NCBI GenBank assembly: GCA_963969365.1
Contig: OZ017750.1
Location: 372,001 to 436,000 of the forward strand
DNA: 64,000 nt
Direction: 5' to 3'
From: Asterochloris sp. CNOR1
Taxonomy: Eukaryota > Chlorophyta > Trebouxiophyceae > Trebouxiales > Trebouxiaceae
The position numbers and the translations under genes were made by a program. Shown here piece by piece: positions 5,193 to 56,100 of this stretch (its first letter is position 1; every line of letters begins with the position of its first letter). The notes under the pieces were generated by a model. The model made no database searches. It saw only the letters and a list, made by a program, of their open reading frames with translations, and was not told where the DNA came from.

Positions 5193-8100
5193 ATGAAGCG
5201 CAAGGCAGCGTCAGGATCTGTCTCAAAGCAGCCTGCCAACACAATCAGCTGCTCCAAGGTCAAGCAGGTGGCATGGACCCCTGTCGACACTGATCAGGAG
5301 GCAGATGAGGTGCTTCATGGTACTGCACCAACACAGAAGGTGTGAAAATGCAACATGTGCTCCGAGACATGGCCGCACTGCGGCAGTTGCATTGCAACTG
5401 CCAATGCAACATTGGCATGAAATTTTGTGACGCAAGCTTTCTCGTCTGCCCCAACCTTCATGTGCTGTCACACGTGTACCAATTTGTGTGCCTCGTGGCC
5501 TGCATGTGCAGGCAGTGAGGCAAAGCATCAATTGCTGTGCTTTGCTGACAGATCTTCATTGTGCAGGCCATGACGCCACAGTCAGGCAGCTTTGGCCAGC
5601 ACCTGCTCAAGGGCTTTGCTGCCCTGTGGAATGACAGGTGGGTTCGCAAGTGGACAGACCAACTCTCAGCCAGCATGTAAATTTAGGTTTGCTGCTGCTA
5701 TGCACCTTCAAGGCACCACCCTGGGGTCGGCCACCTCCACTCCAGCGCAACTGGCACCATGGCCTCCCTGCTGACACAATCAGACAATTTCACAGGCCGA
5801 TGTCATCTCCCGATGAGGGACACTATTTGCCTTCCGTCTGCTTGCTGTAAGCAATGCACAGCACAACATGTGCAAAGCAAAGCACAGGCACATGTTGTAC
5901 AAGTCATGCCCCACCCCAACTGCTAACCAACTGATGACTGCCTCGAGCCGTGCCTGCCTGTCAGCGCTAAGCGTGCTGTGATGCCCTGCAGGAGCCAATC
6001 GGCAAACGTCATCCTGAGTGTGGGCGACCAGCAGGTCCTGGCCCACAGCTGCGTGTTGTGCGTGTGGTCAGAGGTGTTCAAAGGCCCTGTTTACCCGTAG
6101 GTCAGCCCAGCAGACCGGCAATGGCATCAAGGCAACTGCTGTCACAGTAGACCTCAGCCAGGGAGACAGCCCTGAGGACTTTCTGGAGCTCCTGCACTTC
6201 TGTTAGGTGGGCACATGCCAGGTGAGTGGGTGCTCTGCCAGGCCAAGCGAGTGTCGTGGCGCTCACCTGCATGAATATGTATGGCCAGAGAGTCAAGGCA
6301 GTTCTCCTGGCGGTTATGTTGCTTGACTTGAAGCACTCTGTTTGCCTCATAATAACACTCAAAAGGCCAATGTCATATAGCCTGACATTCTGCATTGCTC
6401 TGCAGCTTGACTCGCATAATGTAACGCCCCTGCTGAGACTCAGCAACTACATGAGGTGAGCCTGCACCGTCACTGCTGTGCAACCCTTATTGCAGGCAGA
6501 GCTCAGGCTGATGGGCGGCTTAGCTTTGCCACAGACTCTGTTGATGGGCCGAGCATGACTCACATGCTGCTGCTCACATGCCATTGCTGGCTGGTCCGTG
6601 TCATGGCCCAGCCACTGCTTGTGGGGCATCATTGATGTTCCCTGGGCCACCAACAGGTCTGGCAGGCTTTCATCAGCCACTTGCCCTGCCAAACCCAGCT
6701 TGCCTCCTCACACAACTCCCCCCTGCCACAGATCCTGCTGTTGAAGGTCTCCTGCGGCGAGTTCCTTTTTGAGCTGCTGACCGCGCGCAACTGCCTGAAC
6801 CTGCTGTTGAAGCTGACAGAGAGATACGTGTGCATGGGCGCACGGCGCATGCTGATCGAGCACGTGGCACTGAACTTGAGGCCCTCATGGAGGAGGGTGC
6901 GCTCTGGCAGCTTCCCTGCAGAGTTTGGCAGGAGGTCTTGATTCAGGACTGTCTGGCGGTAAGCTACTGACTGTGCCGTACCGATGCGATAGCTGCTGGC
7001 ACGGTCTGGTTTCCTGTCTAGAGGTCACCTAGATTGAGGTGAGAGCAGTGACCAGCTTGCCTGCAAAGTGCGGATGGAGGTCCTGGTACTGGACTGCCTT
7101 GCTGCAGCTGTGAGCTGCCGGCTGCATGATTACGCCATGACAGCTGCTGGCACAGTCTGCATACCCTCATCGAATTCACTGGGGCTGACCCCTCTTGGGG
7201 TTCACTGTGGTTGAGTTGAGTGCTGCAGACAGCTGCCCTGCAAAGTGTGGCCAGAGTCGCTATGTTTTGGCAACTGCCTGGCATAGTCAGGTGCTGTGGG
7301 TCTCCTGCACAGAGCTGCACCACTGTGGCAGAAGGGGCTGCCCGAGGGTGGCTTGAGTGCTGCACGCATGCCTGATGCTGTGTACATATGTTTACATGCA
7401 ATATGGCAACTGCCCTGCAGCAAGCAAGAGCTGTGCTTTGCTCTGCTGGCTCTGCTGCAACAGCACAGGTTGAGAGAGGGTGTTGCCCCACAGTGAATTC
7501 ACTTCGAAGTTGTTGTTCCATGTGTTGCTGCCCTTCATGTCTCAGTCGGAGTGGGCGCTGGCTGGCATCCCAAGGTGCTAGAGTCGTCATGTCCAGAAAT
7601 TACCAGCCGTCCTGTGCACAAGGGACCTGTACAGTACATGTAATCCATTGCAGCTCAGACTGTTGCCGGGGCCTGCTCTGCGGCAACGAAAGCCACCTAA
7701 AGGCGCTTTTCTTGTGATCCTGGCTCTGAGGTGGGAGTGGCAGGGCAGTCACAGACAGTCACTTGTCCAGCAGACCGGCTGGCCTTGCTGGCCCCTGGCT
7801 GGTGCTGGTCACATACAACTAGCTCAAAGTCATGGCATGTGTGCTCCAAGTGGTGCCTCACACTTGTCCGCGGTTTCCGTGCAGGTGCCCAGTGAAGTTG
7901 CCGTGCTGGAAGCAGTCAAGGTTTATCATCACTACAACACACAGAGCAATGGCATGAGAGATGAGTGCATCGTGGAGAAGGTGAGGCCCAATAGCCTGAG
8001 GAGGTGCTGGCTGGAATTACAATTTGGCAGCATAGGAGAGCTTCATCTGTTTCTTTGGTTGTCCCGATTGTCGTCATCAACTGAACGCAGCGCACACGCA

Positions 8101-14651: not shown

Positions 14652-14740
14652 GAAGACGAGCTTGTGGTAGAGGAGGAGAGATACACCATGCACCTTGCAA
14701 GGCTCAGTGCAGGGCTCAAATGAGCAAGGCGGTCAGCCTA
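9758..14740 (+). repeat. Left arm of diverged inverted repeat (copy B segment)
   Basis: This stretch is collinear with the reverse complement of 58800-63850. Shared landmarks are the PHPE-exon, the SPRY exons, the SSGTPGDSVQL exon, the CSQGA-exon near 13853 and the acidic tail with a common TAG. It is also collinear with copy A (1-4760) in direct orientation. Exons are well conserved while introns have diverged, as expected of old gene duplicates. Confidence 0.75.
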
Positions 14741-14981: not shown

Positions 14982-15027
14982 CCTTCAGACACGTTTCAAA
15001 ACAACAAAGTTCACTTGATAAGAGGTC

Positions 15028-15445: not shown

Positions 15446-18400
15446 ATGGAGCAGCATGGCAGCACTTCCACGTACAACATGGAGAGCGTGCTGCGCCAGA
15501 ACATTGTCAGCTCAGAGTACTTTCGCAGCAGCTGCGCCCAGCTAAACAGCTGGGACGAGTGTGTGGACATGATATACGATGATGTGTACCATGTGGAGCC
15601 CTGGATGAGTGGGAATGCAAGAGGCGCAAGCTCAGCCTTTTGCCTGCTCTACAGGCTGATGCAGCTCAAGATAACTGCTGGCCAGGTCCGCCAGCTGCTG
15701 GACCACGCAGACTCGGTGTACATTCGCGCGGTGAGTGCTGGCTGCCCTTGCCAGGGTGGTATGCTTTGCTGCTACTTCCCTGCCGGCATGCCTGAGGGCT
15801 GCATGACACTGTACACCTCAACGGAGGTGTGAGGCTGCTGCTGTGAAGGTCTTCCATTGCTGCGCTCAAGATGCCTGCGCAAGCTTTGCAGTGCGAACAG
15901 CCAACCTGAAGCTACTGTGCTGGCCCCACAGCTGCACAGGGCACAGGAGACAGAGCCCGGGGCTGCTTGCAGATGCATCCCCAGACTGCTGCACAGTGCT
16001 TGCCCAGCTCTGACCTTCGTGTGCTTGCCCCTGCAGATTGGCCTGCTGTACCTACGCTATGTGGGGGAGCCCAAGAGCTTGTGGCAGGACTGGCTGAGTC
16101 ACTACATGTATGATGACCAGGTGCGCCAGAGTGAGTCCCTGGGGGGGCTGCCGTTGGCCTGGGTCACCTTAGCTGGACAGCCCACTGGCGTTACCTTGCC
16201 AGAGGTACCCGAACTATGTTTTGTTCTTCTGAGCGGTGCTGGAGGATTCCGTACTGCATTGCATAGGGACTGGGCCTGTGCCTGCACCATGCACATGAGC
16301 GAGCGGCCTCCGTATCTGCTTTCGCCCTGCCCCTCAAAGCAGCGCCCACTCTAGCGGCCTCCAATTTCCTGACGCCTGCCCTGCCTCTGTAGCAGCGCTG
16401 ACATACGGGTGCCCCAAAGCTGATAGTTCTCCCTGATCTCTGCCTGTGCAGGAGATCCAGCCCAGCGGCGAGTCTGGGGGAACAGTCACCTTTGGAGCAT
16501 ACATGCGCGATGTGTTCCTTGATCAGGTGTGCGACCTCTCCTCACGCTGCTCTCTGTTGTCGACTGCATACGCCTCTACCATCTTACAGCACTGTGAGTG
16601 GCACCATTGATTGAGCTTGGCAGTGGCTGCCTGCCATGCACTGGCGAGACCTGCTGCGGCGCTCTGCCTGGTCCACAGCTGCAGCCAACCCATCTGTGCA
16701 GCGTGTAAGGTGTTGCAGGGTCACGCTCACCAGAGACAGGCTGACGCCGCCTCCCTCCCACGAGCTTGACTGCGTGATGGCCCAGCTGGTGTCAGCGGGC
16801 AAGTCACTGCTGCTGACCCGCTGCATTTCTGTCAGCTATGCCAGCCCATGCATGCCACACTGCCAGATTGACCTGAGCTGCGATCAGCTGGGCTTGCAGT
16901 CTGAGAGAACCACCCAGCATCATGCAAGCATGCATGGAGGCTTGCTTCAAAGTGTTCACACATTGCCTAAGCTTGGCACGCCCCGGCCGTCTGGCAGGCC
17001 GCAGCGCCTGTGAGACATCACACATCCCAACCATCCTGCAAAGACTCAATCCAGCTGACCTCCCTTTCCTTTCCTCTTGCGCTGCAGTACTACTTTGAGA
17101 CCATCTTCCCCCGCATCCCAAAGCCAGTGCAAGACAGTATGGTGGCCCAGCTGCAAGCTGCTCAGCTCCCCTTCAAAGCAGTGGGCAATGCGGGGCAGGG
17201 GGGAGCTGACAGAAGGGGCTTGGACGAGCCAAACCGACGCCCTGCCTCGGTGAAGGCTTCGCTGTCGGTCGCCTTTGGGCAGCGGGCGCCCAACAGGGCG
17301 ACTGCCAGGGAGGAGGGACGGGGCCTGGGGGCTGGCATGCGGGGCACATACGGCGGCGGCGGGGGGGTGGTTGGCGACGCAGCTGGGGAAGCCCTGCGTG
17401 CCAGGTGGGTGACACCAGCTTCTGGAAGTCTGCTGGTGTTGTCGGCAACTAGAATGGGCAGCTTGTTTGAGCACACAGCACTGTGGCTTGGGTCTGGTTG
17501 AGGACTGCTGCGGGGCTGACCCATGTGCCAGGTGGGCTTGCAGAGCTGCCAAATTGTGCTGTCAGATAATGGAACAAGGGCGAGCTGCTTCTGGCTGGGG
17601 CGTGCAGTTCTTGGCGATGGAGTTGTCTCGGAAGATGGCAGGCCAGCTGACTTACGAGACGGCACGGACTTGGATGACTCATGCAAGAGCAGGGGCAGGC
17701 TGCACTGCTGGGGCAATGCAGTGCGACAGCAAGGACATGTTTGAGCAGCGGGTGGGTGATAGCGCGCCACATGCCGGTGTGATATGCACTTCTCCTGTCT
17801 TCAGCATATAGGTGCATGGCACCTGGTCTTGAGCAGCTGCCTGGCTTCTTGGATCTGCTGGCAGCAGGAAGAGCAGGAGCGCTGGACCTGTGCGGTTTGG
17901 CAGAGTGCTGGCTGCAGAGCAGCGCGGAGTGAGGCAGAGGTGCTCGGCAGCACGTCTGCATGAAAGCCTGGTGTGTTCAGCAGCTATAGCACACTACAGG
18001 CCGCCGCGGGCCCCACTGCTAACTGCTGGCCTCAGGGAGAGCACTTCATGTGTCTGTGGCCAGCGCAGCATTTTAGTTCCTGACTGCCTTGCGCAGTTGC
18101 GCAAGCATTTTCAGTGCTGCAGGCTGGTTGCTCAGGTACCTGCCAAGGCAGGCTGCTGCAGGGCATCACCTGCGAAGACCACATGTGGGGAACAGAACAG
18201 AGTATTCTCAGTGGACTTTACCTGGTCAGCACAGGCGCCTATACCTGGGCACCTGCTATGCTATTTATGCCATGCCGGCATCTCTGCTTCATTGCTGCCC
18301 GACACTCTGTTACAGCACCTGCTTGCTGCCTGCAGCTCCAGAGACGGCCGGGAAAGGGATGAGCGTGAGAGGAGCGCATACCGCAGCAGGTGACTGTCCT

Positions 18401-21922: not shown

Positions 21923-24081
21923 TCAAATGAACCATGAAGCATGTGTTTGAGCAATCCCATGCAATCCTAGGGCACCTCCTGAGTGCAGCATGATTGTTTG
22001 CTCATCTGGAATCGTGCGTGACGCCTGGCAAGATGCCTGCCATGCTGCCAACGAATAGACTGGGTCAAGTAGGATGCCACTGCTCTGTGCCACCTGCAGC
22101 ATCACCCGTAACTTGCTCTGGACTCAGCGCAAAGACACACACTTTGCCAGCGCGATGCTAGTGATCAGATGTCCCAGGTGCACTTGGTGGCTGCATGTGC
22201 AGCCCAAAGCAGTGCTAGGCAGGCTCACATGCGAAGCCCTCTGTATCAGGCAAGCACAGGGCCAACCCACCTGTCTGCACTGCTCCACGTCATGCTGAAA
22301 GACTTTGCCAAAAGAACGGGGCACCTCCCTCTCCTGCCAGGCCAATTTGGAATGGGCAATGTGCAGTTCCAGGTCAAATTGGTCAGAAAATGCTGCACAG
22401 AGCTGCTGGGCTTGCAGCTGGTAGTAGTCTTTACTGCCAGCTAGCATGACTGCAACAACTCTCCAGGGCAGCTGCAGCAGCTCTACTCCCACTGCCAGGC
22501 CTGCACAGCAGCACTGGGTCGAGTTTGATGGGGCCAGGCATGCTGTGGGGCTCTAAAGCTGATGGGTCTGAACTGGGCCCTGTTGCAGCTGGTCTGCAGG
22601 GCTGCTGCTTGGCTGCTGCTGTCCTCTCAGTGGTTCTTTCTGGCAAGACTGCTGCACGCTGATGCCCACGCTGCTTGCCAGCAAAGCCCGACAGACAAGC
22701 TGTCGATCTCAACGTCAGGCAAGCGGGCTTGCCTGTGGCAGTCACTCCCGTCCCGCAGTCAACCACAAGCCTGCACCGCCTGCTCCCAAGCTGCTGCTGC
22801 TGGGCCAGCCAGTGAACTTGCCTGATGCAGCCCAGCAGCGCCCTAGGGTCAGCTGCGCCCTCCCTGATGACGTGCAGCTGCAGCAGAAGCCATCTAGGTG
22901 GTGATGGCAGCAAGTACCTCAGCTTGGCCACGTCATGTGGGCAGGACTGGTTTGGGCACGCAGCAAGACTGTGCATGCCCTCTGGGTGGTTGGCCACCAC
23001 CACACTGGAGGCATGGTGAGCAGGCATGTCTTGTTTGCTGCACACGATGCTGCAGGCACACCTCATAAATGGCTGTGCAAGGGCCCCTTATGGCAGCAGT
23101 CCACCCGCCCGTCAGCACAGCTCCCCTGTGCTGCACATCCCAGACCTTGACAGGGGTGTTGTCAAGGCTGGTGTTGGCAGCAGCGTTGGCAATGTCAGTA
23201 CAAGTTGGTCGCAGCGGTGCTCAGGAGGGAACACGTCAGCCAGCTCTCATCGGGTTGCCAGGCCTCAGGCCAGCCCAGATCCTGGCAGCGTACTGCCAAC
23301 ATTAAGGCCCCCAGCCCTCAAAGCCACAGCATCTAGGAACAGGTCGAGCCCTCACCTTGCTGCTAGCGCCGAGGCCAGCCTCTGGCTTGGCAGCGTGTCT
23401 GCCAGGCATGCGGCCCCAAACCATGGCAAACAGCCCGTCTCAAAGACAGTCCCTCACCTTGGTACCAGCACTGAGGCCAGCCTGTATCCTGGCAGCATGC
23501 CTGGCAAACATGGCCTCCCGGTTCGCATAATCCCCCTTGCCCACAAGGGTGACCTCTGCAGCCAGCATCCTGGCCAGCAGGTGGTAGCCCACAGGAGGGC
23601 TCTGTGTGAGCTGCTGCTCGTAGCCCCGCACCAGAAGGTGGCACCTGATCCCTCGCTCAGCGCAGGCCACGGCCACAGCAGCGCAGTGGGCGCTCTGCAG
23701 GCCCCCGCAGGTGACCTGCAGCGTGGCAGGTTGCCACAGCTCAGGTCAGGGCAAGCTTTCGCGTTGTAGGCACCTCTGGTGCTCAGAAGTGGGCTGGCAG
23801 GCTTCTCAACCCTGACCTGCCATTTGAGGGCAGCTGCTCTTCAAGGGCACACTACGCAATGCTCTTTGATCATTGCCTAGGGCCAGCTGAGCCCTCCCCT
23901 GCAGGCAGCCTGTCGGCGGCAGTAGCACCCAGCGCACCACGTGCGTGACTCCTTCCTGCGCCAGGCTGGGCATCAAGGCGTCAAGCTTGCGGCACTTGTT
24001 TCCCCCCAGAACTGGGTGCAGCAGGTCGTCTTGCACCACCAGGAAGGAGGCTGCTCCAGAGTCCCTGGACACTCTGCGGAT
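21923..24081 (-). CDS. D-cysteine desulfhydrase / ACC-deaminase-like PLP enzyme (N-terminus unresolved)
   Basis: Exons in transcript order: 24081-23938, 23715-23458, 22877-22733, 22500-22271 and 22093-21923, giving 315 residues in phase. The first resolved exon carries FLVVQDDLLHPVLGGNKCRK; the Lys of GGNK is the PLP Schiff-base lysine of this family. Then come VTCGGLQSAHCAAVAVACAE, RCHLLVRGYEQ, VIREGAADPRALLG, VDCGTGVTATGLAVG (the phosphate-binding loop region), WRVVAVMLAG and GILLDPVYSLAAWQ, ending with LHSGGALGLHGIAQ. Such enzymes (beta-family PLP fold) break D-cysteine into pyruvate, H2S and ammonia, or open aminocyclopropane carboxylate; sequence alone does not settle the substrate. The intron after 22733 starts GC rather than GT. 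About 30-60 N-terminal residues, including the start and any organelle signal, must lie between 24081 and about 24700. The gene is head to head with PRMT10. Confidence 0.88.
23270..23457 (-). repeat. Decaying tandem copies of a desulfhydrase exon end and donor
   Basis: The exon tail encoding MFARHAARIQAGLSAGTK plus donor GTGAGG (ending 23458) recurs in the adjoining intron as MPGRHAAKPEAGLGASSK plus GTGAGGG (near 23356-23410). A worse copy reads YAARIWAGLRPGN near 23265-23310. The spacing is about 100 bp. Confidence 0.7.
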
Positions 24082-32333: not shown

Positions 32334-35300
32334 ATGAATGGTCAGCTAACTGCTCATAGGCCTGGCTCCTCTGGCCTGCTGCGCACCGTCACCATTGGCA
32401 TCCCCTTTGGAGTGACGCACCTGGAGACAGCTGGGGACAATGGCTCAGCGGATGTGGCAGCGGCAGATGCAGAGGTGGCAGCAATCAACAATGCAGCGGC
32501 CGCCAGGCGCTTGGGCAGTCCTGAAGGTGGCTGCAGATGCTTCCCTGCTTTCCTGCGGGCTCACTCAATTTCAGGAAGCAGCTCAAGGCTGCCTGCAGCC
32601 ACATGAGCATGGCTGAATGTGCCTTGCACTCACAACAGCTTGGGGTGCATGGGAATCTCTTGCCGGTGAGCTGCACAGCAGCCTCATGCCTGCAATCAAG
32701 GAGCAGCTGTCACAGTCTCTTTTGCTGCACATACATCTAAACAAAGCCAGCAGGCAAGCAGCACAAGGTGTTGCTATGCCGGTAGATGACCTACGCCGCT
32801 TCAGGCTCCAGACAGTAGATATGTCTGCGCGCTTCTGGCAGGCCATCCTTTAGGGGCTGCTGGTGCTCAAAGAAGCTCAGCAACATCGCCCAGGTGCCGT
32901 GCAGGCTCCCGTGCCTATGCGCGAGTGCTCAGCCATCGTCGCGGACTGGGTGCCAGCAAGCGCAGGCCTGCAGGCTTTGAGGTGGAAGACGCTGCCGGCA
33001 TGCTCCCCTCTCGCAGCATCAGCAGCAGCAGCAGCAGCCTGCAGCGGGCTTTCGGTGAGGATCCAGATGTGTCCGCTGACACCTTGATCTGATGCACACC
33101 CTTACACAGGCCTCTAAAGCGTGTAGGGACATGCCCAAAGCAGCTGGGTTGCCCAGGGTGTCCAGCCTGTAGCAGAGCTCAAGCCCCGTTGCATGGCCAA
33201 CCCTGCATGAGGCGCTGACATGCCATGCCAGAGCAGTGCATGGGATGTGGCTGTGCCATGCCAGCTTTGAAGTGAGCAGGCACCCCTGCATGGGATGTGT
33301 CGGTGTCATGCCAGCCTGTCACAGATCTGGGCACCCCTTCATGAGATGTGGCTGTGCTATGCCAGCCTGTCGCAGAGCAGGGGTACCCCCTAGATTGGAT
33401 GTGGTTGTAACATACCAGCCTATCATAGAGCAAGGGCATCCCTGCACGAGATGCGGCTGTGCCAAGCCAGCGCGTAGTGGAGCAGCGCCATTCCTGCATG
33501 AGATTTGGACGTGCCATGTTCTGCAGACTCGCCGGGGCAGTCCAGCCATAGGCAGATCTCAGGATCGCGTCCCATGTCCGGGCTGCGACCTCATTTCTCA
33601 GAAGTGGACCAGGTGCTCGGGCCGTCTGGGTCAGCAGGCGACTCGAGAGCGGCAGGCAAGCCCTCTGAAGGCAGGCTTTGACTGTGAACATGCCTCAGGC
33701 TGTCAAGGCCTATCAATTCTGACCCACCTGAGTGGTGCACCTAACTTGAGATGATGTGGAAGCAACAGGCTGGGTCTCTCTTCCCATGTGAAAAGTCTCA
33801 CCCTGCTGCACTGATAGACGGCCAGCATGTCAGCAGGGCTGCCCTTCTAAGTTGTGATTTGTAAGCTTTCCTGGGACTTCCATGCCAGGCTGCTGTCTGA
33901 GCTACAGGCAAGGCCAATCGGAGTTTTTCACCAGCTGTGAGCTTACCTTGGGCTTCAAAGCTGGAATGCTGTCTGAGCCGCTGGCAAGGCCCTTGGAAGC
34001 TTGAGTCTGTTTGCAGTTCTACCTGAAGCTTGAGTGCTAGATGCCTGAGCCACTTTGTGTGTGGGAGGGTGGACTGCTACACCTCAGCGATCCACCCATG
34101 GGTCTTCAGCAGGCACCACCACAAAGCATCTGGCTTGCAGGTGACGTCACCGAGCAGGGTGACACCCAAGCGCCGGAGCAAGTCTTGGACGCAGCCCGCT
34201 CTGCCTCTACTGTAGCAGCAGAAGGCTCACCAGACACTGCTGAGGAGCAGCCTGGTCAGGTAAGTCCTCAAGCTGCTCTGTCTGTGCTGGAGCAGCACAC
34301 AGGCATGGCAGCCAATGCGGCAGCTGTATTAGCAGGCCCACCAGGGCAGCATCCTGTGCAATGGACCTGCGGCAGCATGCAAAGGGCAGAGCTCCTTGTC
34401 ATCAAGACCGTGTCTCACAGATGCCTCTTAGCAGCATGCATGGAGCTGAACTTGCCGCCTGGAGCTGAAGATGCTGCTCCGAGTGCTATTTTGGTGGATA
34501 CCCAGACCCTGCAGGATCAGCAGTGCTGCTGGACAACATGCACATGTTGCATAGCCTGCTGTTGCTGAGGCTCCACGTTGCCGCAATGTCAGGATGACAT
34601 CCTGCTCTGGCAGGACCATTGATTCAAGGTCCACCAGTGCTGCTGGACCATGTGCTCCCCCTGGTTTTATGTACTTGCCTCTGCAGCAGCTCAACCTTGC
34701 TGCCATCCCCGTGATCATGCAGCTTTGCCTGCCTCTGCAGGACCTCAGCCTGCCTGCCACGTCAGGCTCGCATGCTCTGCCAGCCCTCTAGGACCCCCCA
34801 AGTGGTGTAGAGGCAACCTGTTTTCCTGCCTGCCTCTGCAGGGTCTCACCCTTGCTGCCATCTCAGTACCCATGCAGCTGTGCCTGTCTCTGCAGGACCT
34901 CAGCCTGCCCCCCACGTCAGGGTGGCGTGCTCTGCCAGCCCCTCCAGGCCCCCCAGTTCTCTTAAGACAACCTGTTCTCCTGCCTGCCTCTGCAGGCCCT
35001 CAGCCTTCACGCTGCAGCCCACCTGGGGAACTCCCTGCTGTCGACCTCTACAGCGGGTGGTGCAGCTGGCGACCCGCTGTCGCTGTTCTCCTGCTTGCCT
35101 CTGCAGCAGCTCATCCTTGTTGCCATCTCAGTACCCATGCAGCTGTGCCTGTCTCTGCAGGACCTCAGCCTGCCCCCCACGTCAGGGTGGCGTGCTCTGC
35201 CAGCCCCTCCAGGCCCCCCAGTTCTTTCAAGACAACCTGTTCTCCTGCCTGCTTCTGCAGGCCCTCAGCCTTCACGTTGCAGCCCACCTGGGGAGCTCCC

Positions 35301-38300
35301 TGCTGTCGACCTCTACGGCAGGTGGTGCAGGCGGCGACCCGCTGTCGCTGCTGCAGGGCAGGCGCCCAGTGACGCCTGCCTGGGCGGGCAGCTTGACACC
35401 TGCAGCAGAGGATGACAGCATTGCTTCGTATGCGGAGGAGCAGGGCTACAGCAAGCAGGTGAAGGGCACTTTTGGATACCAACCTCAGGCCTGAAGCCAA
35501 CAGCAGTTGCTAGGACCCTCTCCTGGCAAGCTGGGCGTTGGCCCTGCTGCAGATCACCTGGATATGGGCTTGGGTTGCACAGGCGTTCTCAGGAGACTGG
35601 TGTGCCTGGCCACAACAGAGATTTCAGGGGTAATTATCGTCTCCCTTCTGGTCCCCTGGGCACCACTTTGCCTGCAGATATCTCCGTCCAATTCTGCACA
35701 ATTAGCATGGCACCTAGGTTCAAGTCTCACCTCCCCACGCTGCCTGCAGGCGCAGCGCTTCCATAAGGTTGTGTTTCACCTCCCCACGCTGCCTGCAGGC
35801 GCAGCGCTTTTATGGGGTTGCCCCACAGACAGCTATGCACCCACTTCAGTCCTCTGGTGCTGCTATGCCTGCAGAGCCCGACTCACCTCCATGTTGCAAC
35901 AACTACCCTGCCTGCTAGCAGGTGTAGCCATCATCTGTTGTCGTGCTGCCTGCAGACCCACAACCACCTTGATCCAGATGCCCGCCGAGCCACACTTGCT
36001 CCCTAGCTGGAGCAACCCACCCTGCCTGCTGGCTAGGGTGTTGCTGTCATCCAAGAATCCATGATGTCATCCCGTGTCATGCTGCCTGCAGGCCCATGAG
36101 CACCCTGATGCCTACACCCACACAGCCACACCCACTACAATACGCTTTCACCACCCTGCTTGCCTGAAAGCCTGGCATCATCCACCCTAGTGTTGCCTGC
36201 AGGCCCAGGGGTACTTGGAACGCTACGATCACAGAGCCACCCCCATGCCCCGCATCCTGCCCCGCCACAGGGCCAACTCCCCGCCCTCCCCAGAGTCTGA
36301 CGAGCACAACCCCTTTGTGAGGGCAGCTGCCCGCCCCTGGAGCGCTTCCAGGGATCTCGCCCTGCTGCTCAGGCCTGGACAGCTTCTGACCCCCGATGAT
36401 CTGGTGGTGCTGGCAGAACACCGCAATGCGCAGCGCAACAGGTCCCTGCCTCCCTCCATCCTGCCCAAACCCAGGTAGGGTTTTTCTGCATGCTTCTAGG
36501 AAGGCATTCAGTATCTTGATGGGGCGTTTGGTGGACTCTCAGGGGACAGGGCACCACACTACGGAGCGCAACAGGCAGCCTGCTTCCCGTCATCCTGCCC
36601 AAAGCCAGGTAGGGGTCCTGCGCGTGCTTCTAGGAAGACAGGTAAGTGTTTGGCAATGGGGCGTTCAGTGAGCCCTCAGGGACAGGGCACCGCAAAGCAC
36701 GATGCAGCAGTGCCTTGCCTTCATCCGTCCTGCCGAAACCGGGTAAGGTCTTTTGCTGGTCCCCACATGACGACAGAAGGCATCCAAAAGGTAGATGGGC
36801 CTTTCAGCGGCCCCCTGGGAGACAGGGTGCCGTAGTGCACCAAGCCTCAATGCCCTGCTTGCATTCATTCTGCTCTTGCTCACATAAAACTGCTGGCTGA
36901 CTGTGCTAAGAATTGATACAACTTCGCAGCGTCTGTGGAATTTGTGTGGGCCACCATTGTATTGCAAGCCTCTGCACCCTCTCTCTGCCCAACTTGTGTC
37001 AAGGTTTGCGCCTGTGCGGCAAGTCGGGCACGACACCTATGAAGGGGGCTCATGCAGGGTCGCGCTATCTGAACAGCCACTGGCCGCCAGATCGCTTTGA
37101 CACTTGTCCCTGGCATGTGTTCTGTGCCAAAAAGTTTCAGATATTGTGAGGCAGGCAGGCAGGCAGGCAGACATGCCTGCTGTCGTCTGCATGGTGCTCA
37201 AGATAAAGCAGGGCAACAGGCGCCGACCGCTGTTGATTGACTTACAGACAGGATCTCCACACCTGTAAGGCAACTGTTAAGCATCCCACTGCTGCAGGTT
37301 CATCAAAGTAGACGAGGGACGCATGTCCCCTGCCAATCTGCGGGTGATACGATACCAGCAGAGGCAGTCGGTGGGCATGGTTCGGGCCAAGAAGCTGTCT
37401 CAAGCGCTCTTGGAGGCAGCGGTTGGGGTGAGCACTGCTCTGCTGCTCATGTTGCACAGCTCTGCATGCTGCATTGCTCATGGTTGCCCCTGAATTGCTT
37501 TGCTCACAGCTCCACATGGAGGCAGAGATGGTTTTTCACAATCAGCACTTAAAAGTCTTGACTGCCAGCCAGTCTAGAAAGTGCCTGACAATGGTCTCGG
37601 CAAGGCTGGCCCCGTAGAGCTGCCCTCCGCCAGCTGTCTCTCTGCATTGCACTACCGTTGAAAACATACAGGCAGATAGGGCCTGTCTATGGCAGTATCT
37701 GCCAGCTGCCTCCTGGCTCATATGCTGCTGCTGCTGTGGCGCAGGCAGCCGGGGCTGATGATTTCGGTGCCCACCGCCGGCGGCATCCCTTCAGACCCGT
37801 TCTGCTGCTGTGGTGCAGGCAGCCAGGGCTGTTGATGAAGGACGCCGCATGTACCAGGCAGGCATTGCTCCAGATGCCACCACTGAGATCCAGGCAGTCA
37901 TGTGAGTCTGCCTGGTCCTGTCGTGTCGGTACCTCGTCAAGCATCTTGGGGTGCTGCACAGGTGTGCTGTAACCTGGCTGGGGCATGACCAACAGCCCCC
38001 TTGCCCAGTCAGCCAAGCTCATGTGTGTGGCACAGATGCCCCTGACACACTTGTCATCAGGCCAACAGCTGCTTGCGTAGTGCAGGAGTGGGACTCACTT
38101 GGCCAGCGTGGCCTCCTCCAAGCTAGGGGCACTGCCCCAGCGCAAGATGGCAGCCATGCGCAGCCTGGCAGCCTCAAGACTCATGCGCTCCATGAAGAAG
38201 CAGCCCACGCTGTCTGACCCTGCCACACGCAAGGCGCTCAGGAATCTGGCCACCCTGATGCTGTCCCCACGGGAATGGTGAGCAGGGATCTGCTGCTCTG

Positions 38301-41300
38301 GACAGCTTGATGTTGGTCTTCTGTAGCCAGGCACTGTGAGATTCTGCCACGCTGGCCACCCTGATGCTGTTCCCTAGGGAATGGCGAGCAGGGGCTGCAT
38401 GGGTGTTTAGTGCGTTGTTGTCGGGCTAACAGATCTGCCAGGGGTATGGTGCTGCGCAGGTTGCCATGTGATCACGCTGATTCTGCATCACAGGGACTGC
38501 TCAGCAGGGGTCTGCTGCTCTGAATCGCCGTAATGGCCTGCACCATGGCTGTCGTATCATGCTGCTGCGCATCGATGAGGGATTTGGCCAACCCAGTGAA
38601 AAGAGAGCAGGGGGGTGTGTACGCTGCCTCCTTCATGTTCTAATGCTGTGCGAGCAGGCTGCGCTGATGCTGTCCCCACAGAAGTGGCGATCAGGAGTTG
38701 TGCCTGGCACAGGTGGCAAGCAGACCTCTGTTGTGGCGACTGCTGTTCTGGCAGCTTGACGCACGGGCCGCACTGATGCTGTTCACCATGTAGAGCTGTC
38801 CCCCGCTCCAGGCTGACCAGTCAAGCCCTGTGCTCTGCAGGGACAATGACTACGACGAGGATGGTGAGGGCGGTGGCCACAGCTCAGGAGCCAGGTCCAG
38901 CGCTCAGCGCCTGCGCCAGGGCGCCATGTGAGCCAGCTGTGCTATGCAGTTCAGCTGTGCATCTGCATTGAGGCTTTCATCTCTGATGATGCTGTGCCCT
39001 TTTGGGTGTCCAGCAAGCAGCAGCCAGCTGCCCTGTGTGGTCAGCTGAGTTGTGCATGGGAGCTGTCCTTGCCGCTGCTGCTGTGCTCTGAGAGGTGTCC
39101 AGTACACATAAGCCAGCTGCACTGTCTCGTGGAACCAGTTCATCATGTGCACGAGGACTGCGGCTCTTTCTTCAGCCGCTGTGCCCTGTGGGGGTCCAGC
39201 ATGGAGCAGCCAATTGCCCTGTGTGTCACGTACTTGCAGGCTTACGGGCTGCAGGTTATGCTGACGCTGTGCCCCACTAGACATGCAGCATTTTGCAAGC
39301 CATCTGGTCAACAGTATCAGCTCAAGTGCTTGGGAATTCTCTAGGAATAGACCCTGTTGGGCTTCCAGCGTGCAAAGCATGTGTCAGAGGCCCTGCAAGC
39401 TGCCTGACAGTGGTTTTCAGCCAGCACAGCTCTGCCTAGGCATGGCCACCTGGGCAGGATGGGCTCACGCTCAGCACACTGCACCTCACTCTGCTGTGCC
39501 TGCCCTTCCTGCAGCTACACGCCGCAGTACGACATCATAGCCCGCGGCTATGCCCGGCGCCGCCGCAAGGAGGCAGAGCATGAGGCCGCCCTGGCAGCTG
39601 CCAAGGCTGCAGCCGTCGCGGCCGCCCTGGCCAGTGACGACGTGCTGCGCATGCAGATGGAGCTGGATAACATGCTGGCGCAGCAGCAGGCCAAGGGGGA
39701 CGCTGCCCCTGAGCCAGGTGGGGCGCTTGTCGTCATTGCTGGTTGGGGCCTCTAGTCATGATGCGTAAAGTGAGGCTGCCTTAGGGACATGTGGCGTGCT
39801 TTGGGTTGCGTTGCCATCATACATGTTTCCTGAGCGAGTACTGCAAGGCAGATGCATCCCCCCACCCAGCTCTGCACTTCAGCTGACAGACCTGTGTGAT
39901 GTCGCGCAGAGTACATGTTTGAGCCGGAGCTGCCTGCTGTTCCAGAGTCTGACATGGCAGAGCCAGACATGGCAGAGCCTGACATGGCAGAACCAGACAT
40001 GGCAGAGCCAGAGGCCACTGAGGTGGTTACAGATGCTGCTGCGGTGAGGCGCACGCACGTTGAGTGTTGTCTGCCTCTAAGCCACAGCAGAGGCTCTCCC
40101 AAGAGGGCTTCCTTGGCACCAAAACAGGTTGCAGCGCGTCATTTGCTGCACATAATACTGGAGGCCTGTCTGCACAGAGATGCTGGTCTCTGCAAGCCAA
40201 AGACTAGGCATGTATACTATGGCCCTGGCAGTGTTTGCTGCCATGCTCAGAGTTCTCCAATTTGCAGGGGCAATCCCCAACTGGTTGTGTCTTGAGCAAA
40301 CGGCTTTTGAAAGGCTAGCCAGGGCTACCTCACCTGGTCACATGGCTGTTGTCCATGCAAGGCTGCTTGCCGGCCAGTTGAGCCAGGTGTTGGCCTCAAG
40401 AAAGCAGCTGGAACTGAGCCGCTCCTTAGCCCCCAGGCTGACTGAACCCAAGGCAAAACAGCAATCTCCAAAACAAGAATGTTTTTTGTTACCCTGCAGG
40501 AGGCACCTGCCATAGCAACTCAGACCGATGATGTAATGGAAGAAGCACCGGCAGAAGCTGAGCCGTCTCCCCCCGGCCCACTGCAGCGCGTGGAAACGCA
40601 GAGTGAAGCAAGCCTGGTACGCGACCAGAGCGGGAAGGAGCTGACTGTGATGAAGGCGCGAGGAGGTAAACAACCACATGAGCAAATGGTTGACAGAGTG
40701 CTTGAATGGGTGCAGCAACCTTTGCTGGAAAGAGGGGTCCTGGACACCCCATTCTGAGGTGTCTTCAGTGCTTCAAGCAGCACAGGCCAAGCACTGCACC
40801 GTCTATACTGCAACTGAGCAGCCATGACAGGGGCCTGCCAGTGTTCTTTGTGACTGTGCCTGAGCACAATAACCCTGGAGCACTTCAGCATCCATAACCC
40901 ACGCTTCAGGACTGGCCAGGTGTGCCAAAGAGACCCTGCTGGTGCCAGTTGCTGCCCAGTGCTGTGTGCTGGTTTGACACTGCACCACGCTTCTGCTGTG
41001 ACATGCAGGCGACCAGGTCAACCGGGTGGTGCTGCCCAATGGCATGACCATCCACCTAGCGGCCCGGACCAAGCTGCCGGTCACCAGGCAGAGGCAGCAG
41101 CAGCTGCAGACCGCCTCCAGCAAAGCCTCCACCCAGCTCCTGCAGCTGCCTGAAGGCTCGGGGGTGCCCTTGCGCACAACCCAAGAGGTAGGCCCTGCTC
41201 GGCTGCTCACTCATGGCGGGGTGCGCACGCTTCAGCCATAGGGTAGTGCTGAGGGGCTGCTCACTTCGTCAAAGCAGCTGCTTGAAGGCTTTGGGGGCGC

Positions 41301-44300
41301 ATACACACTAGCCAAGAGGTAGGCTGCCCCCTCAGTGAAGGAGTGCCAGCGTGCACCAGCCAAAAGGTTGATGGGCTGCTCAATCAGTGAGGGCAGTTGC
41401 CTGAAGGTTTGGGAGGGCGCAGCAGCCAGCAGGTGGGACTGAGGTGCTGCTCACTATGGGGCCCGCCTGGCTGACAGGAACAGGGGGTGCCGTGGATGCC
41501 TGGTCGAGCTGCGGCTGCCTTATGGAGTATGGCTCACATGGGGAGGATTGGCTGGCAGGAGTCCATTGATTGGTCCCAGGCTGCAGAGCTACTTGTTGCA
41601 AGCCCCTGCATTCATGTTAGGGAGGAGCAAGGCCCTTGCGGGGTGCAGCAATGAGATGCATGAAGTCAGACAAGCGCTGGCTTATGTGCCTGATTTTGTG
41701 CACACTTGTGGCAGCTTCCAGCAAGCCCCTCCTCTCTGCAGGAGGCCACTCCATTGTCAACTGCTCAGAAGAAGGCAGTAAAGCACGCACAATCTGATGC
41801 TTCCCAGGGAGGCACCACTGAGGCAGGCAGTGCCTTTGGGAAGCGCGAGAGTGAGTTCTCAGGTGAGACAGTTAGGCATGTTGGAGCCTTGTCTTTGGCT
41901 GACACTGATGCAGTGCGCCTCTGCCCAAGGTGGCAGTGCGGAAGCCACACTTCTGTACTACTGCCACACTGTGCAAGGGGATGCAACAATTGTCCAAATA
42001 AGCTGCCTGCATGGCTGTAGCAAGCTCCACACACAAAAGTTGCGGCAACCTTCAGGCACGACCCGGATAACTGCTGACCCTGAAGTGGACCTCTCCAGCA
42101 GTTGTCACTGCACACCCTGTCAGGCCTTGCTCTCAAAGGTGTGAGTTGGCGTGCTCCTGCAGGCTCCAATATGTCGGTCTTGGAGGCCACGCTGAGCAGT
42201 GAACCCTCTGGAGAGCAGGCACAGGACCCCTCAGTGCTGAGTGTGTTTGAGACACCCGGGGGGCACCAGGTCATTCAAACCCTGGTTGAGGCTGAAGTGG
42301 AGGGCCGCATGCAGCAATTTGTCACCCGCACCGTCGTCACCGCATCTGGGCAGGTGGTGTGCGTCGTGCGGGAGGACAACGAAGAGGTGCGCCCTTCTGC
42401 ACTGTGTGCCGCCCATCAGCCGCACATCTGCTGCGTGCAGCACCCAGGCAAGCACTGCAGCTCACTGGCTCATTGTCAGCTGCTGGCTCATGAGCCCAGC
42501 ATCAGTGCTCACTGACTGCACCGCCTGAGCCTTGTCAGGCAGCCAGGCAACACTGCATTCTGCTTGTGGGCCTTGAGCCCAGCATCAGTGCTCGTGACAG
42601 CCCACTAAGCCCAATCAATGGCCAGGCTGCACATCAGCGCATCACTCCCTGCAGCCACAGCTGTCCCCCTTGGTGGCAGGAGGTGCGCCTGGAGACCATA
42701 GACGTGCAAATCATTCAGAGTTGCTCCGATGGCACAGACTGCCATGCAAGTAAAGCTGCTTGAAAGCTGGCAACTTGAAAAGATGCAGTGCCCACACCTG
42801 GCTGTGCAGGTGCTGTTTGGGTACAACCTCTTCAAGGGCCCCCTGGGGCAGATGCTCAAGCAGGCTCCCGTCCCTGCCCAGCAAGGGTCTGGCACTGATG
42901 TTTTCAGAAGGGCTTCCACCCAGGAGGTGAGCAGCTCTGGTGTAGCGTCCAGGGATTCAGAGTGATGCCCCTCCTCAAGGTGTGATGACGCCTGGACTCC
43001 ATTCACTCTGGGCAGCTGAACCTTAGGGTTCAGGGCTGGGTTAGCAATGGTGCCCAGGACATGCCTCCTGCACCCCCCTGTGCAGCCCTTGCAATACCTC
43101 AAGGTACCAGCAGCATTTGCAGAGGTGATGCATAGCCCAAGGAGCTTAGGTGCTGCATGGGCTTCCCCTCTGTGCATCACCTCTCACCGCTGGCGCGTGC
43201 AGGCGTCGCAGCGCAGCACACGCCTCAGCAATGACTCGGCAGCCAGCCCTGCTGCAGTCATCCCCACAGCTGGGGGCGGGGCTGCAGTCATGGGCCGCCT
43301 ACGCCAGCAGGCGGCACGTGACAGGCAGGGGCCTCGTGACAGGCAGGCTGTGGCCAGAGAAGAAGCAGCCGTGGGCATCAGCAGCAATGGCAAGGTGTGA
43401 TTTTGGAGGCTTCTTTGGCTGCTGCACCTGCCGGCAGCCTTGATGCACATGCAGCAGCAGGCATTGTCTGAGCTGTGCAGAGGCTGGCGCTTCCAGAGTG
43501 CTGGATGAGTGATGCACCCCACCATCCAGCTTGTGAAGCTCTGCCTGTAGGTGGCCTGTTTGAGGTGTGTTGGGAGCACCGTGCAGTGCTTCAGTCTGGC
43601 CTCTGATGCACCGCACTGGCCAACAGGTGTGGCACTCTGCCTGCAGGGAGGCCCTCCAGGGGAGCCTTTGGTAGCCGCCTCCAAGAGGCGCGGCAAGGCC
43701 GCTCGGGTGGCACCGACCGTCGCGCCTGTGATTCTGGCGAGGCCCTCACAGCACGTGGAGCCGTTCGTGCAGAAGCAAGAGCCCAACGGAGCATCGCCCC
43801 CTGAGCTGCACACGCCGGCCAGCAGGCGCCCTGCCAAGCAAGCCCCAGGGGGGCGCCAGAGCAGGAGTGGGGCGGTAACCCCACCACCGGCCGACAGGCA
43901 GGCAGCTGTGGGGGCTGCTGATGCTCTGCTGCAGCGGAAGGCACTGCAGCAGCGCAGCGCGAGCCTGGGTGCTGCGCCAGCCCACCACCAGCGGCAGCAG
44001 CAGGCACACCAGCAGCAGGCACTGCAGCGGCACTGCGCGAGCCTGGACGCTGGGCCAACCCACCAACAGCTGCAGCTGGGGCAGCAGGAGCACAGTCATC
44101 CTCACCTGCAGCCTTCGCACCAGGGTTCCCAAGACCCTGCCCCTGCCCAGCACCTGCTCCACCTGCAGGGTCCCGAGACAGGGGCCAGTTGCCAGCAGCA
44201 GCGCGCAGGGTTTGCTGCCCCAGGCAGGCAGCCTGGCAGGCACGGCCCAATTCCTGGTGCTAGGGACCAGCCTCTAGCTGCAGCTACTGCCTCACCTGCT

Positions 44301-49951: not shown

Positions 49952-50178
49952 GTTTGTTGGAGTGCAAAATTGTTCTGTTTTGGGTGGCCCTTGCAAGGCT
50001 TGCTTCACTGACACGGGAACACAGTCATACCATGGAGGCTGAAGGGCTGAACCTGCTGCTGAATACATTGAAAAACTCCAGTGAACATGACAGATACATT
50101 TGTCCAGTCAAAGAACTTTCTGTGCCAGCATTGTGTGGCAAGTAATCATGATAATTTTGGGTGTTATTACAGGGGTTG
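49952..50178. other. Shared 3' interval of the large gene and SNAP190
   Basis: 227 bp separate two convergent stop codons. TTACA at 50166-50170 is TGTAA on the minus strand, close to the SNAP190 stop. No other feature was recognised. Confidence 0.4.
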
Positions 50179-53100
50179 CTATTCAGAGGCCTTCGCTTTC
50201 CTCTTCTGGCTTCTCTTGGGTGTTCCGCGGGGAGACTTCTTTGCCTTGGGGCCGCCCTTTGCAGCCAGCTTCTCCCTTTCTAGCCTATTCCAGCAGCGCT
50301 TGACCTGTGAGTCTGTGCGTCCAGCCATGCCTTTGGCAATGTGGCCCCAGTGCACCTTCTTCTTTCCAGGGTTGTCCTGCACCCACTGCGCCACCAGACT
50401 GGCCACTTCCTGATCCTCCTGCTTTGTGAAGGGCCCCTGGTTTATGTCTGGGTCCAACACATTGCACCAGCGCTCCCGGCATTGCACATCTGTGCGTCCT
50501 GGCACTTGCTTGGCGAGAGACGTCCAGAAGCCTCTGACGCCCTTGGGCGTGGCTGCATGCGCCTTCAGAGAGGCACACCCAAGAATTAGTGGAGTAGGTC
50601 TGAGGACGAGCCAGCCTGCAGCTGTCAGCCACCACCATTGCAGTCTCCAAGTCCTTGCTGGCCTCAGCACAGACCCGGGGCACTAGTGGCCAGTCACATG
50701 GCACAATGGTCGACCCGCCAAGCAGCAGCTGCAGCATGCCCAAAATCAGCGACCTCCTGGTCAGAACTTTGTTGTTGGGGCATTGCGTGTGCCAACTTTC
50801 TCAGGCAGTCGCAGCACATGGAAGCTCGGCCTCCTGTGCCAACCACTGCCCCTTGATGCATGTGTCTCAGGCAGTGGCAGCAGCCTCGAAGTACCTTGAT
50901 CAAGAGCTCATCCTCCTGTGCCGACCACTGCCCCTTGGCACGTGCAGAGCCCAGGGCCAGCACATTCTTGTAGTGGTGCATACACTGCTCATTCTGGCGG
51001 CCACCCCCAACCTCGGTGGCCACCAGCTGCCAGTTGTGCCCATGCTTTGCAACGGCAGCCTGCAGGACAGGTCTCAAGGTAGGGATGATTGGTAGGGGTT
51101 TGTTGGGTTGCGTACCTCTCTGTCGTGGGTTGCGTGCTAGACAGACCATGCCTGCTCGAGTGCAGTCTGCAGTGGAGCCGGCAGCTGGCCACTGCTAGAC
51201 TGGCAAGTTTGCGGCGGGAGCAGGCGTCGGTGAGCTGGCCTGCTGGTTTGGAATGGCCTGTGGACGCGCACGACAAGGGCAGAGTGTGTTGTGGTGCGCA
51301 CTGCAGGCCGGGTGGCTTGCACTGCAATGGCAGGCCAGGATGTTCCAGACAGGCACAGTCCGCACCAGAAGGGCTTGAGGCAGTGCAGAGGCAGCAAGTG
51401 CACACACAGACAGGGCAGGCAGGGGTTGGCCTGGGAGGGCGGAGAGCTCACCAGCAGCCGTTGCTGCTCAGCCTTGCTCCACTTCCCTGCGCCCTCCTCA
51501 CGCTTCTGCAACTCTCTGTAACGCGCCAGGCACTGCACCGCAGTTCGCCCTGTGTTGAGGTCCTCTGCCACAGCCTCCCACTGCAGGCAGCAAGTGTGAC
51601 ACCTTCAGGTCCATGTGCTAAGGCCCTCACCCGCAGCCGCCCACAGGATGTGTGATCACTTCCGGTGAGATCTCAGTGCCAGGCAGTGCAACAGTGTGCA
51701 AAGGTCCTCAGCCACTGCCTCCCACTGCAATCAGGACATGTGACGTCTTCAAACTATAACAGGGCCAGGCACTGGGATCCTGAGCCATGGCCTTCCCCTG
51801 CAGGCAGAACAAGCGACCGTGTCTCAGGTAATGCCAGAAAGGCCTGCTCTGCAGACTGACAACGCGGCTCTAGGCACAGGGCTGCTGCAGAGGCCGACAG
51901 CCACTGTTGTTGATGTAAGCAGTGCTTACTACCTGGTACAGAGCAGCTGGCCGGCCGGCCAGCTCAGGACACAAAGGAGTAGGCTCCCATGAAGTACAAG
52001 ACCTCAAGTGGCCTCACTGAGGAGGCCTGCCTGGCCACATGCCTATCAACTCAAGAGCATGTCACAAAGCAATCATGCTGCAAGCAGAAACTGTCTAGAA
52101 CAGCTAGAAGTCTGTCTGGTCTCAGAATATTGCCTCTCTGGCACACGCCAGCTGTGGAAGCCAGCACTGCCCGGGGTTTCAAATTGCAACGGCCTGACAT
52201 CGCATGGCAGAGCACCAAAATTCTGTCTTGGAACAATCTGCCCATATCTGTGCGTGCCCCAGCACAGAATAGCTTAGCAAAGCACCACACAGCACCAGCC
52301 GATGATCTTGCCGAGAATAACCAAAGCTAGTGCTCACGCTGCGCTCCTGATACCGCTTGGCCAGCTCCCTCAGCTTCACCTCCTCCTCAGCATTCCAGGC
52401 TCCATTGTTGACCCTGGGGCTGCAGTGGTTCAGCCAGTGGGCTCGACACTCGCCGCCACTGTGCCAGCCGAGAACATGGGCCACCTTGCGTTCAAAATGG
52501 TCCTCCCAGAACTCACGCCCCCAGGATGCCACTTCTGCCAGTATTCCTGCAGCACCGCCTACACGGTGTGAGGCGTGCTGCCTGCAGCAGCGCGGCTGTG
52601 GAAAGCTTGCACAGCAGCAGGGAGGGCTCCAGGATGCAGCTGCAGCTGAGGCCCTGCACCACAATCAATGCAGGGGCAAGGAGACAACAAGGCGCGAGCA
52701 CGGGTCATGCAGGGAGCAGGTGCAGTGCATCTACAAGGGGCGCACGCCGTGCATAACCAACTCGTGCCACTGCAATGCAGCAAGCCCACATCAGCCATGC
52801 CAAGTGCAGTAGCTTTCCCCCACGATGTCCACCAGGACCACAGCAGGAGAACATGATGCAGTGCAACGCCAGTAGCTGAGCACCCGGCCTTGCATGGCAC
52901 AGCACGGAGGCCGCTCCTGTGGGGGCAGATCAGCACAAAGCTGGCAGGAGCCGGCAGGCTGGAGTAGCCTGATGCCCCTCACTCCCAGTGAGCTCAGCAT
53001 GGCACATCGCGCAAGGGCAGCTCCCTGCTCAAGGCACTGGCAAGCGGCCCAGGGCCTGCAGAGTGGAGCAGCACAGCCCCAGCCAAGCTTGACGCTGAGC

Positions 53101-56100
53101 CCACCTTCATCCGGAAGTTCCAGGCCGTCTATGTGCTGAAGCATTGCTGCAAACTGGGCTGGCTGTGTGGTGAGCTGTGCACGCTTCCTGAGGCTGTCCT
53201 GCAGCAGTGAACCATGGTGGAAGTGGGAGGCAGATACCTGAAGTTGCATTTAAAGCAAGCGCAGTCTACATCTTTTGTCAGGCTCATGACCACCTTTCCG
53301 GTCAGCAGTAGGCACCACAGGGCTGGCAGATGGACGAGGCTCCAGTCTGAGGCTGTGACAGTGAACAGACCCTTCCTGACCGCGGTGACTGAAAGCACGG
53401 GCGGTGGCAGTGCCTGAGCAAGGACCCACATCAGCTTGCTTGGGTCCAGCATTCAGTCCCTGGCGTGTGATGCAGCACATTTGGTGCCCGCAGGGTGCAA
53501 GCCGAGGCTGCCTCCCCCAGGGGAGATGCATATGAGCAATGAGCACTCACTCTTGCCAGCTGCAACACCACCTCCCTCAGGCGGTCGCACTCCACTTGTG
53601 CCCAGCTGCTGTCCTGCCGGTGGGCATGGGGCATGAGCGCAAACACAGTCTGAGCGTCCTCATGGTCGGGGTTGGGCTCAGGATACTCGCTGCCATGCCA
53701 CCAGAAGCTGATTGGCTGATGGGGCCTCTGGGCGGTGTCCCTTTGAGGGTTAGCTGCACAACAGCAGGGCACAGTGTGACGGCGGTGCAGGTACAATCTG
53801 AGCATTCTCAGGGTCAGGGTTTGGCTCAGGGTACGTGCTACTCGCTGCCATGCCACCAGAAGCTGATTGGCTGATGGGGCCTCTGGGCAGTGTCCCTTTG
53901 AGGGTTAGCTGCACAACAGCAGGGCACAGTGTGACGGCGGTGCAAGTACAATCTGAGCGTTCTCAGGGTCAGGGTTTGGCTCAGGGTACGTGCTGCCCTG
54001 CCACCACCTTTTCATTGGCTGGTTGGCTACGTCAGGGCACTGCATCAGGCAGCTGAGTCAAGACAGTCTAGGCATCCTGGTGGTCAGGGTTGCAATCAGG
54101 ATGATCACTGCTCTGCCACCAGAATCTGACTGAATGGCTGGGCTTGTGGGTGCTGTCCTCTTAAGGTGCTGCTGCACAGGCACAGGAGGGCACACAGTGA
54201 TACAGCGTCACAGCAGCGCCCATATGGACGGCTCCTCTATCTTGCGCACCACCCCTGTGAGTCCACACACTACACCAAAGCCTTGTGCAAGGCTGTGTCA
54301 CAGCAGTGCCAGCCAACTGCGGCACGCATGTATAAACTCATGGAAATTAGCCCGTCTTGTACCTGGCCTGGCGTGACACCTGCAGCAGCACAGCTGCAGT
54401 GAGCAGGCTGCACAGTATTGCGCTGTACCACATTCCAGCCTCGCTCAATTAACACCTCATGTCTCCAGCTTTGCAGAGCCACAGAGCTTCAGTAGTGCCT
54501 TCAAATGGCCACTGCAATTGAGAGTGCCTGCCCCCCAGGACTGTGCCATCTCCTTTCTGATCAGGGCGCTTCAGCAAGCACTCAACACAAGCTCCTAGAG
54601 CAACAGCCAACACTCTACTTTTGAGGCAAGCTCTCGCATGAGTGCGCTGCTGTGCCCACGCCCTACACGCTGCAGCAGCGGCCTCACAATGCATAGAGCC
54701 TGGCTTCCCGCACCAGCCCTCACAGCCGTAGACCCCCAGCACGCGAAGCTCACGCATGACTGCGCTGCCGTGGCCCCTGCCCACACGCTCCAGCTGCACC
54801 CTCTTCTCGTCAGCCCCTTCGATACCCTGCTCGATCTGGCGACGAATGGTGTCCAGCCAATGGGCTACTCGGTCGTTGGCAGCCAGGGCTGCACGTAGCT
54901 TCTCGCGCTGCTGCTTCTGCAGCGCACCAGCAGAGCAGGTAAGAAGGTGGCTGCAGGCTGACAGAACAGAACATGGCCAAGCTCCAGCAAGCTCGAAAAC
55001 ATTGTACTCATGCATGCGATTCAGCTGCCCCCAAATGACACCTTTCCTTGCAGTGCCCTTCTGTAGACAGCATCTGCCCCACCGCACACCTGCAGACGCT
55101 GGGCGCACAGCCCTGCCTGCCCAGTCTGCTAAGGCTTGTCCGTTTGCCATGACCTGCTTCAAATGCATGCGACACTCTCAAAACACCCTTGCACTTGCCC
55201 TGTCTACAAACTGTGAAAAAACATGTCCCTGCAGACAGGAGCCCTGTACTGCCCAAAAAGCAACACCCTGCTCCCTGTTGTGTTGACAGTGTCGGACCAG
55301 CAGCCCCGCAGGAGCACCAGCACAGCTGTCAGCATACAAGTTGGCCTCGCAGAACGTATCCTGGTGCTCTTCTGCAGCCCCCCTGCCGTGAGAAAGCTTG
55401 GCAGCCCGACCCCAGGCAACTGCTGCTGCTGCATGTTGCACAGGATCAGCATGACTCTGCCAAGACTGTGATAATGTGACTGGCTGCTGTGACTCTGATA
55501 CAGTAAGCACCCCAACACGTCCAGCATCATACATGATGACAGCAAGGCGCAGGGGGAGCAGCACCACGCGCAGACCTGGGGTGGCCCGGCACAGTATTTG
55601 CAGCACAAGACAAGCAAGAAAATCACCAGGCGATCTAGTCTGCTGACTGGCTGCTCTGGCTCCGCCGGTGCTGCTGTCTCTGCTGGCTGTGCCTGCTGGC
55701 CATGAGCCCTGTCCTGGCCCTCCCAGTCCCCATCTTGGAACCTTACAGGGCCCTGGCAAACAGCACAAGCCAATGATGGGCTCAGCAGGTCCCAACCCAG
55801 AAGCTTCTGATGCAGTCCCACTGCTTGAGGATGCATGAAGGGTCTACTCGACGGAAAGCATCTCAAGCAGTGCATGCAGCACTTGCATGAGGCATCAAAA
55901 CCAGGGGATGCAGGACAAAGACTGGGAGGGAAATTGCCACAACCAGTTGCCACTGAACAGGTGCATCGCTCTCATGCTGTACCTTTCGCTTGCCCGCAGG
56001 TGTGCGACCTCGCCTGGAAGCTGCTTCGGGGACAGGCTCTGGGGGGCCGGTAGCTTTGCGTTTCCTGCCTGCCGTAGCTCCCTGGGGTGTACTGTCTTGT

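Follow-up and report, generated by a model that had tools for sequence, protein, structure and literature searches.

Why do so many introns in one stretch of an algal genome carry copies of their own borders? The stretch, called the window below, comprises 64,000 nucleotides of the green alga Asterochloris sp. CNOR1 (contig OZ017750.1, here C5:372001-436000; genome of 56.4 Mb in 21 contigs). An earlier note on it had described exon ends with their donors, or exon starts with their acceptors, repeated inside the adjoining intron in at least ten introns of five genes, and had proposed an ongoing local process. We analyzed 264 kb, made up of the window, 100 kb flanking it and 50 kb each from contigs C1 and C2. 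Short tandem duplications probably arise here frequently and without regard to gene structure, with an excess at exon-intron junctions that would come mostly from the tolerance of duplications there and from the survivorship of decayed copies.

Repeats were sought by ungapped comparison at every offset from 30 to 600 bp, and segments scoring at least 18 were retained. This gave 310 local direct-repeat segments; when the entire 264 kb was resampled twice with an order-3 Markov model, the scan gave 1 and 3. Offsets of 50-149 bp accounted for 170 of the 310. There were 14 segments at offsets of 601-1171 bp and 4 in a long-range control at 5000-5570 bp, and local inverted repeats within ~600 bp numbered 4 segments, which is the background level. 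Direct orientation and short range thus characterise the repeats. Long-distance matches comprised 7 direct ones in the window and 22 pairs of at least 40 bits beyond 600 bp in C5, and inverted matches at any distance within the window numbered 10.

The segments group into 148 arrays, of which the window holds 40, and the alignment covers at least 0.8 of the offset in 97 arrays and less in 51. The copies are direct, local and head-to-tail, as expected of tandem genomic duplication. All ten periods given in the earlier note (49, 82, 84, 100, 131, 134, 144, 145, 155 and 265 bp) are found among the array offsets of the window. The density that it had considered exceptional is ordinary for the sample: per 100 kb, the window has 62.5 arrays, its flanks have 60, C2 has 62 and C1 has 34. 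The C1 value, from C1:500001-550000, is roughly half of those elsewhere in the sample. We also considered an introner or another mobile element and rejected it. For the three units tested, similar copies in many unrelated introns were not seen: in a whole-genome search, in which the best candidates were scored, all three matched their own locus only.

Junctions were modelled ab initio, without RNA, by a purpose-written gene finder, with the 264 kb themselves as its training sequence. Its last printed round gave 68 genes with 571 exons, and the learned splice consensus was CAG|GTGAG for donors and CTGCAG|G for acceptors. Seven of the nine predicted proteins or fragments queried had Pfam matches (PRP38, oxidoreductase NAD-binding domain, PALP, PRMT, ARF, FKBP and Myb). 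Chlorophyll a/b-binding proteins gave 31 exon-level matches, in a search whose control also responds in a cyanobacterium; taken with the intron-bearing PRP38 and ARF-family genes, they point to a photosynthetic eukaryote. PDB alignments ran gap-free across acceptor 30297/30298 (ARL6-type) and acceptor 51580/51581 (SNAPC4-type); the ARL query lacked 28 residues inserted at its acceptor by the final model, and the alignment backs the join without them. One acceptor (30381) was miscalled and was corrected for the strict count described below. The earlier class, orientation and identity counts use the uncorrected model, under which the 84-bp array is counted as exon-side in the orientation, overlap and identity/decay-class counts. 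In 12 of the 13 repeats with both copies in exons the period was a multiple of three, which would not be expected of wrong exons and thus supports the exon models.

We placed in a strict class those arrays in which one copy carries a junction and the other lies wholly within the adjoining intron, and compared their number with 500 permutations. The class held 36 of the 148 arrays against 16.2 expected (sd 3.8; permutation maximum 28). We regard the observation of the earlier note as confirmed. In the window it held 11 of 40 arrays against 5.1 expected (P=0.010), at junctions 2812, 3674, 11729, 23457, 30297, 36474, 37818, 38277, 51580, 53753 and 59504. Within 6905-54800, where at least ten introns of five genes had been claimed, the strict test recovers 8 introns in 5 gene models, a similar figure. 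By a looser count, partial copies of a flanking exon occur in 18 of the 115 window introns, spread over 9 gene models.

The orientation of these events is one-sided. For 53 of the 65 junction events the modelled junction is the outer copy and the spare one lies on the intron side, compared with about half in the permutations. Junctions shifting between copies, as had been suggested, are thus not the rule. The offset was longer than the modelled intron in 18 of those 53 events, and the stricter same-intron class was therefore adopted. Among all arrays, 9 were exon-side against 18.6 expected, and 7 had copies beyond the adjoining intron, above the expected 3.0. When only exons scoring at least 20 were used, same-intron arrays numbered 30 against 9.7 and exon-side arrays 2 against 11.0. 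Overlap with junctions regardless of orientation was 52 against 38.7 overall (P=0.005) and was not significant in the window alone (14 of 40 against 10.6, P=0.146); the oriented test was used instead.

Such counts could be an artefact of erroneous gene models or of a shared splice consensus, given that the ab initio models were trained on the same sequence, that one acceptor was miscalled and that some models are of low confidence. We regard this as very improbable in view of the 4 segments of the long-range control against 310 local ones, the one-sided orientation, the in-frame exon repeats and the sharper signal under stricter exon scores.

What produces the excess at junctions? We propose that, in the genome regions sampled, short tandem duplications would occur often and irrespective of gene structure, through fill-in repair of staggered breaks or through slippage, as assumed from the literature. 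A duplication across an exon edge may be tolerated because the outermost donor or acceptor would remain in use: the protein would be unaltered and the spare copy would turn into intron. The copies would then diverge over time. If one copy of a pair lies in a conserved exon, the pair should stay recognisable for longer than one that is wholly intronic, and old survivors would consequently be enriched at junctions because the exon copy is conserved.

The dependence of the excess on decay is consistent with this proposal. Among complete tandems with a gapped identity of at least 0.72, 8 involved exons (junction-outer 8 against 4.4 expected) and 12 were intron-only (9.9 expected), which gives no support to a process aimed at junctions. 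Spaced decayed pairs comprised 32 exon-involving and 6 intron-only cases (Fisher P=0.0009 against the complete tandems; this decay comparison excluded arrays of classes Jin, Jboth, EE and IG). When duplications were simulated position-blind, with conserved exons and with ages taken from a fit to the intron-only repeats, the outcome was 18.1-30.2 junction pairs and 19.8-84.4 exon-only pairs, compared with 31 and 21 observed. With unconstrained exons the same simulation gave 13.9 and 9.2.

Several results weigh against survivorship as the explanation. The age fit of the simulation is ill-conditioned, and with uniform ages and conserved exons the J/II ratio was 0.46-0.69 compared with 0.97 seen, that is, too few junction repeats. 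An earlier simulation over all modelled introns gave a ratio of 0.25-0.33 compared with 0.71-0.82 observed. Within detected segments the exon part (similarity 0.792) and the intron part (0.796) are much alike, and the comparison of complete tandems of at least 0.72 identity with older tandems was not significant (P=0.18). Segments of at least 0.85 identity still gave 9 junction-outer arrays against 3.5 expected, which counts against survivorship because it should matter little at that identity. In addition, spare splice signals are retained somewhat better than their surroundings. We therefore hold survivorship to be the main cause with moderate confidence, leaving room for a real preference for junctions.

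Such a preference would follow if duplication were targeted to exon-intron junctions, for instance because these are prone to breaks or form structures, or because the recurring CTGCAG and CAGGTGAG motifs offer short homology. The strict-class excess and its persistence at high identity would fit targeting, but the junction-outer count among complete tandems lies within 2 sd of expectation, with intron-only tandems also slightly above theirs. Moreover, the two cleanest tandems exceed two full units by 1 and 3 bp only and therefore have little end homology. Targeting as the source of the excess is unlikely on this evidence.

The spare copies often remain intact as splice sites. The splice dinucleotide is retained in 29 of the 36 copies against 23.0 or 22.3 expected, in line with the earlier observation that many copies hold usable signals. 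Their mean site score is 3.88 compared with 1.62 simulated (P=0.0005), and 10 of the 36 score at least as high as the site in use. Selection might thus be keeping the spare copies as splice sites that serve as alternatives, backups or decoys. However, the periods of the 36 strict arrays have no preference for multiples of three (12/12/12 modulo 3), giving no sign of in-frame alternative exons, and the intron-only repeats used as a control behave in a mixed way, with acceptor-like signals kept in 38 cases against 30.7 and donor-like ones in 7 against 12.9. We interpret the mild excess of intact spare signals as a hint of function, no more, and find selection on the spares a rather improbable explanation. 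The fuller version, in which junctions are repeatedly duplicated into introns, the copies are selected as a splice-site reserve and introns grow from their ends, is similarly doubtful.

Duplication adding sequence to introns, which the earlier note had also proposed, agrees with the intron lengths. Introns touching an array have a median of 376 bp (n=141) and those without an array 249 bp (n=361); this contrast is weak evidence because longer introns meet arrays more often by chance. For comparison, median intron lengths of 198-343 bp are given for six volvocine green algae in PMC8226300, whose discussion relates double-strand break repair to intron numbers.

Could the repeats instead be what is left of introns gained when AGGT-bearing exon segments were duplicated in tandem? 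The raw material is shared, namely intragenic tandem duplication carrying splice signals, but such gain needs a donor in one copy and an acceptor in the other, and among 52 junction arrays only 1 was pure and 3 more were mixed. The bulk of the arrays do not fit, so this is a most improbable general explanation; single cases are possible.

Intragenic duplications are reportedly common, as in the survey of internal gene duplication by Gao and Lynch (2009). Tandem duplication is well described as a source of introns (PMC4974935 and PMC3443670), and the likeness to our case lies in short intragenic tandem duplications that copy splice signals. Unlike those systems, no new intron forms here as a rule; an existing intron gains a spare copy of its own border. 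PMC4974935 also mentions an 83-bp tandem duplication inside an intron that left the gene structure unaltered. Small tandem duplications produced by fill-in at break ends in mouse and human cells, described as the most frequent class of short (<100 bp) insertion in the human genome (Schimmel 2021, PMC8355091), are likewise local and direct, whereas offsets here reach several hundred bp. Fungal stwintrons (PMC8469720) are a different phenomenon. Our analysis adds three points: that the orientation is one-sided, that exon repeats keep the reading frame and that the junction excess depends on decay. In a limited literature search, among the titles and abstract starts listed, none described these or an oriented duplication of junctions into introns.

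Favouring position-blind duplication with survivorship, we obtain a measurable picture of intron growth, in which each junction-spanning duplication would be an oriented record of the outer site having been kept. Where RNA is lacking, gene models may also be checked against the rule on orientation and the rule that exon repeats stay in frame. If true genome-wide, the mild excess of intact spare signals would point to a steady supply of alternative splice sites.

Table 1. Repeats of the window and their relation to modelled splice junctions (positions within the window).
Position	Strand	Offset or unit (bp)	Content	Remarks
6908..7250	+	145	Just inside modelled intron (donor 6896)	No modelled junction within
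17344..17560	+	127	Donor 17404/17405, PRP38 gene	Score 18, the detection limit
23349..23512	-	102	Donor 23457/23458, PALP-family gene; spare copy in intron	Strict class
30290..30449	-	84	Tandem; acceptor 30297/30298 and exon start, ARL6-like gene; spare acceptor 84 bp upstream, in intron	Strict class; PDB-supported; repeated CTGCAG|GGTGTCAT plain in alignment
34674..35350	+	265	Tandem duplication, 94%, amid related repeats (offsets ~100 and ~155)	Numerous CTGCAG acceptor-like sites; low-confidence exon models; unit single-locus
35724..35820	+	49	Tandem, with acceptor-like CTGCCTGCAG	No modelled junction within
36414..36873	+	~134	Exon tail and donor 36474/36475 (CCAG|GTAGGG) recurring in following intron; related stretch reaching 36873	Strict class; unit single-locus
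37705..37866	+	74	Acceptor 37818/37819; spare copy upstream in intron	Strict class
38244..38700	+	106; related 222, 303, 409	Exon tail and donor 38277/38278	Strict class; nearest spare copy with GC replacing GT
41142..41455	+	~131	Exon tail and donor 41187/41188; copy from 41274	Short doubtful exon called in copy; outside strict class
50798..50944	-	82	SNAPC4-like exon tail	Intron copy without donor segment
51512..51817	-	144	Exon start of SNAPC4-like gene with its acceptor 51580/51581; intronic spare copy upstream	Strict class; PDB-supported
53624..54200	-	155	Tandem duplication, 98% identical, with older related copies; modelled acceptor 53753/53754	Strict class; unit single-locus
54585..54803	-	118	SNAPC4-like exon tail up to donor 54723/54724
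60506..60658	-	99	Exon tail up to donor 60605/60606

Among the ten repeats listed in the earlier note, those of 84, 134, 144 and 155 bp entered the strict count and the other six fell outside it (Table 1). The 265- and 100-bp repeats lie in low-confidence models, and those of 49 and 145 bp contain no modelled junction. The 131-bp repeat does align over its donor and the 82-bp repeat does copy an exon tail.

Many CTGCCTGCAG acceptor-like copies lie at 34674-36202, upstream of the modelled acceptor 36202/36203, and several of them may be successive duplications of one acceptor. A 51-bp tandem array of ~4.6 diverged copies occupies 33191-33516 in a modelled intron. The predicted proteins at 5193-13541 (+) and ~59505-65568 (-) share peptides such as GDIIGVG and LKELMMAPV, so one gene family is present on both sides of the window in opposite orientation; it is putatively BTB/SPRY-like, but Pfam gave no match for the one member queried. 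Finally, in-frame coding repeats occur in modelled exons of a large uncharacterised gene, at 39932-40012 (15-bp unit) and 43932-44076 (78-bp unit).

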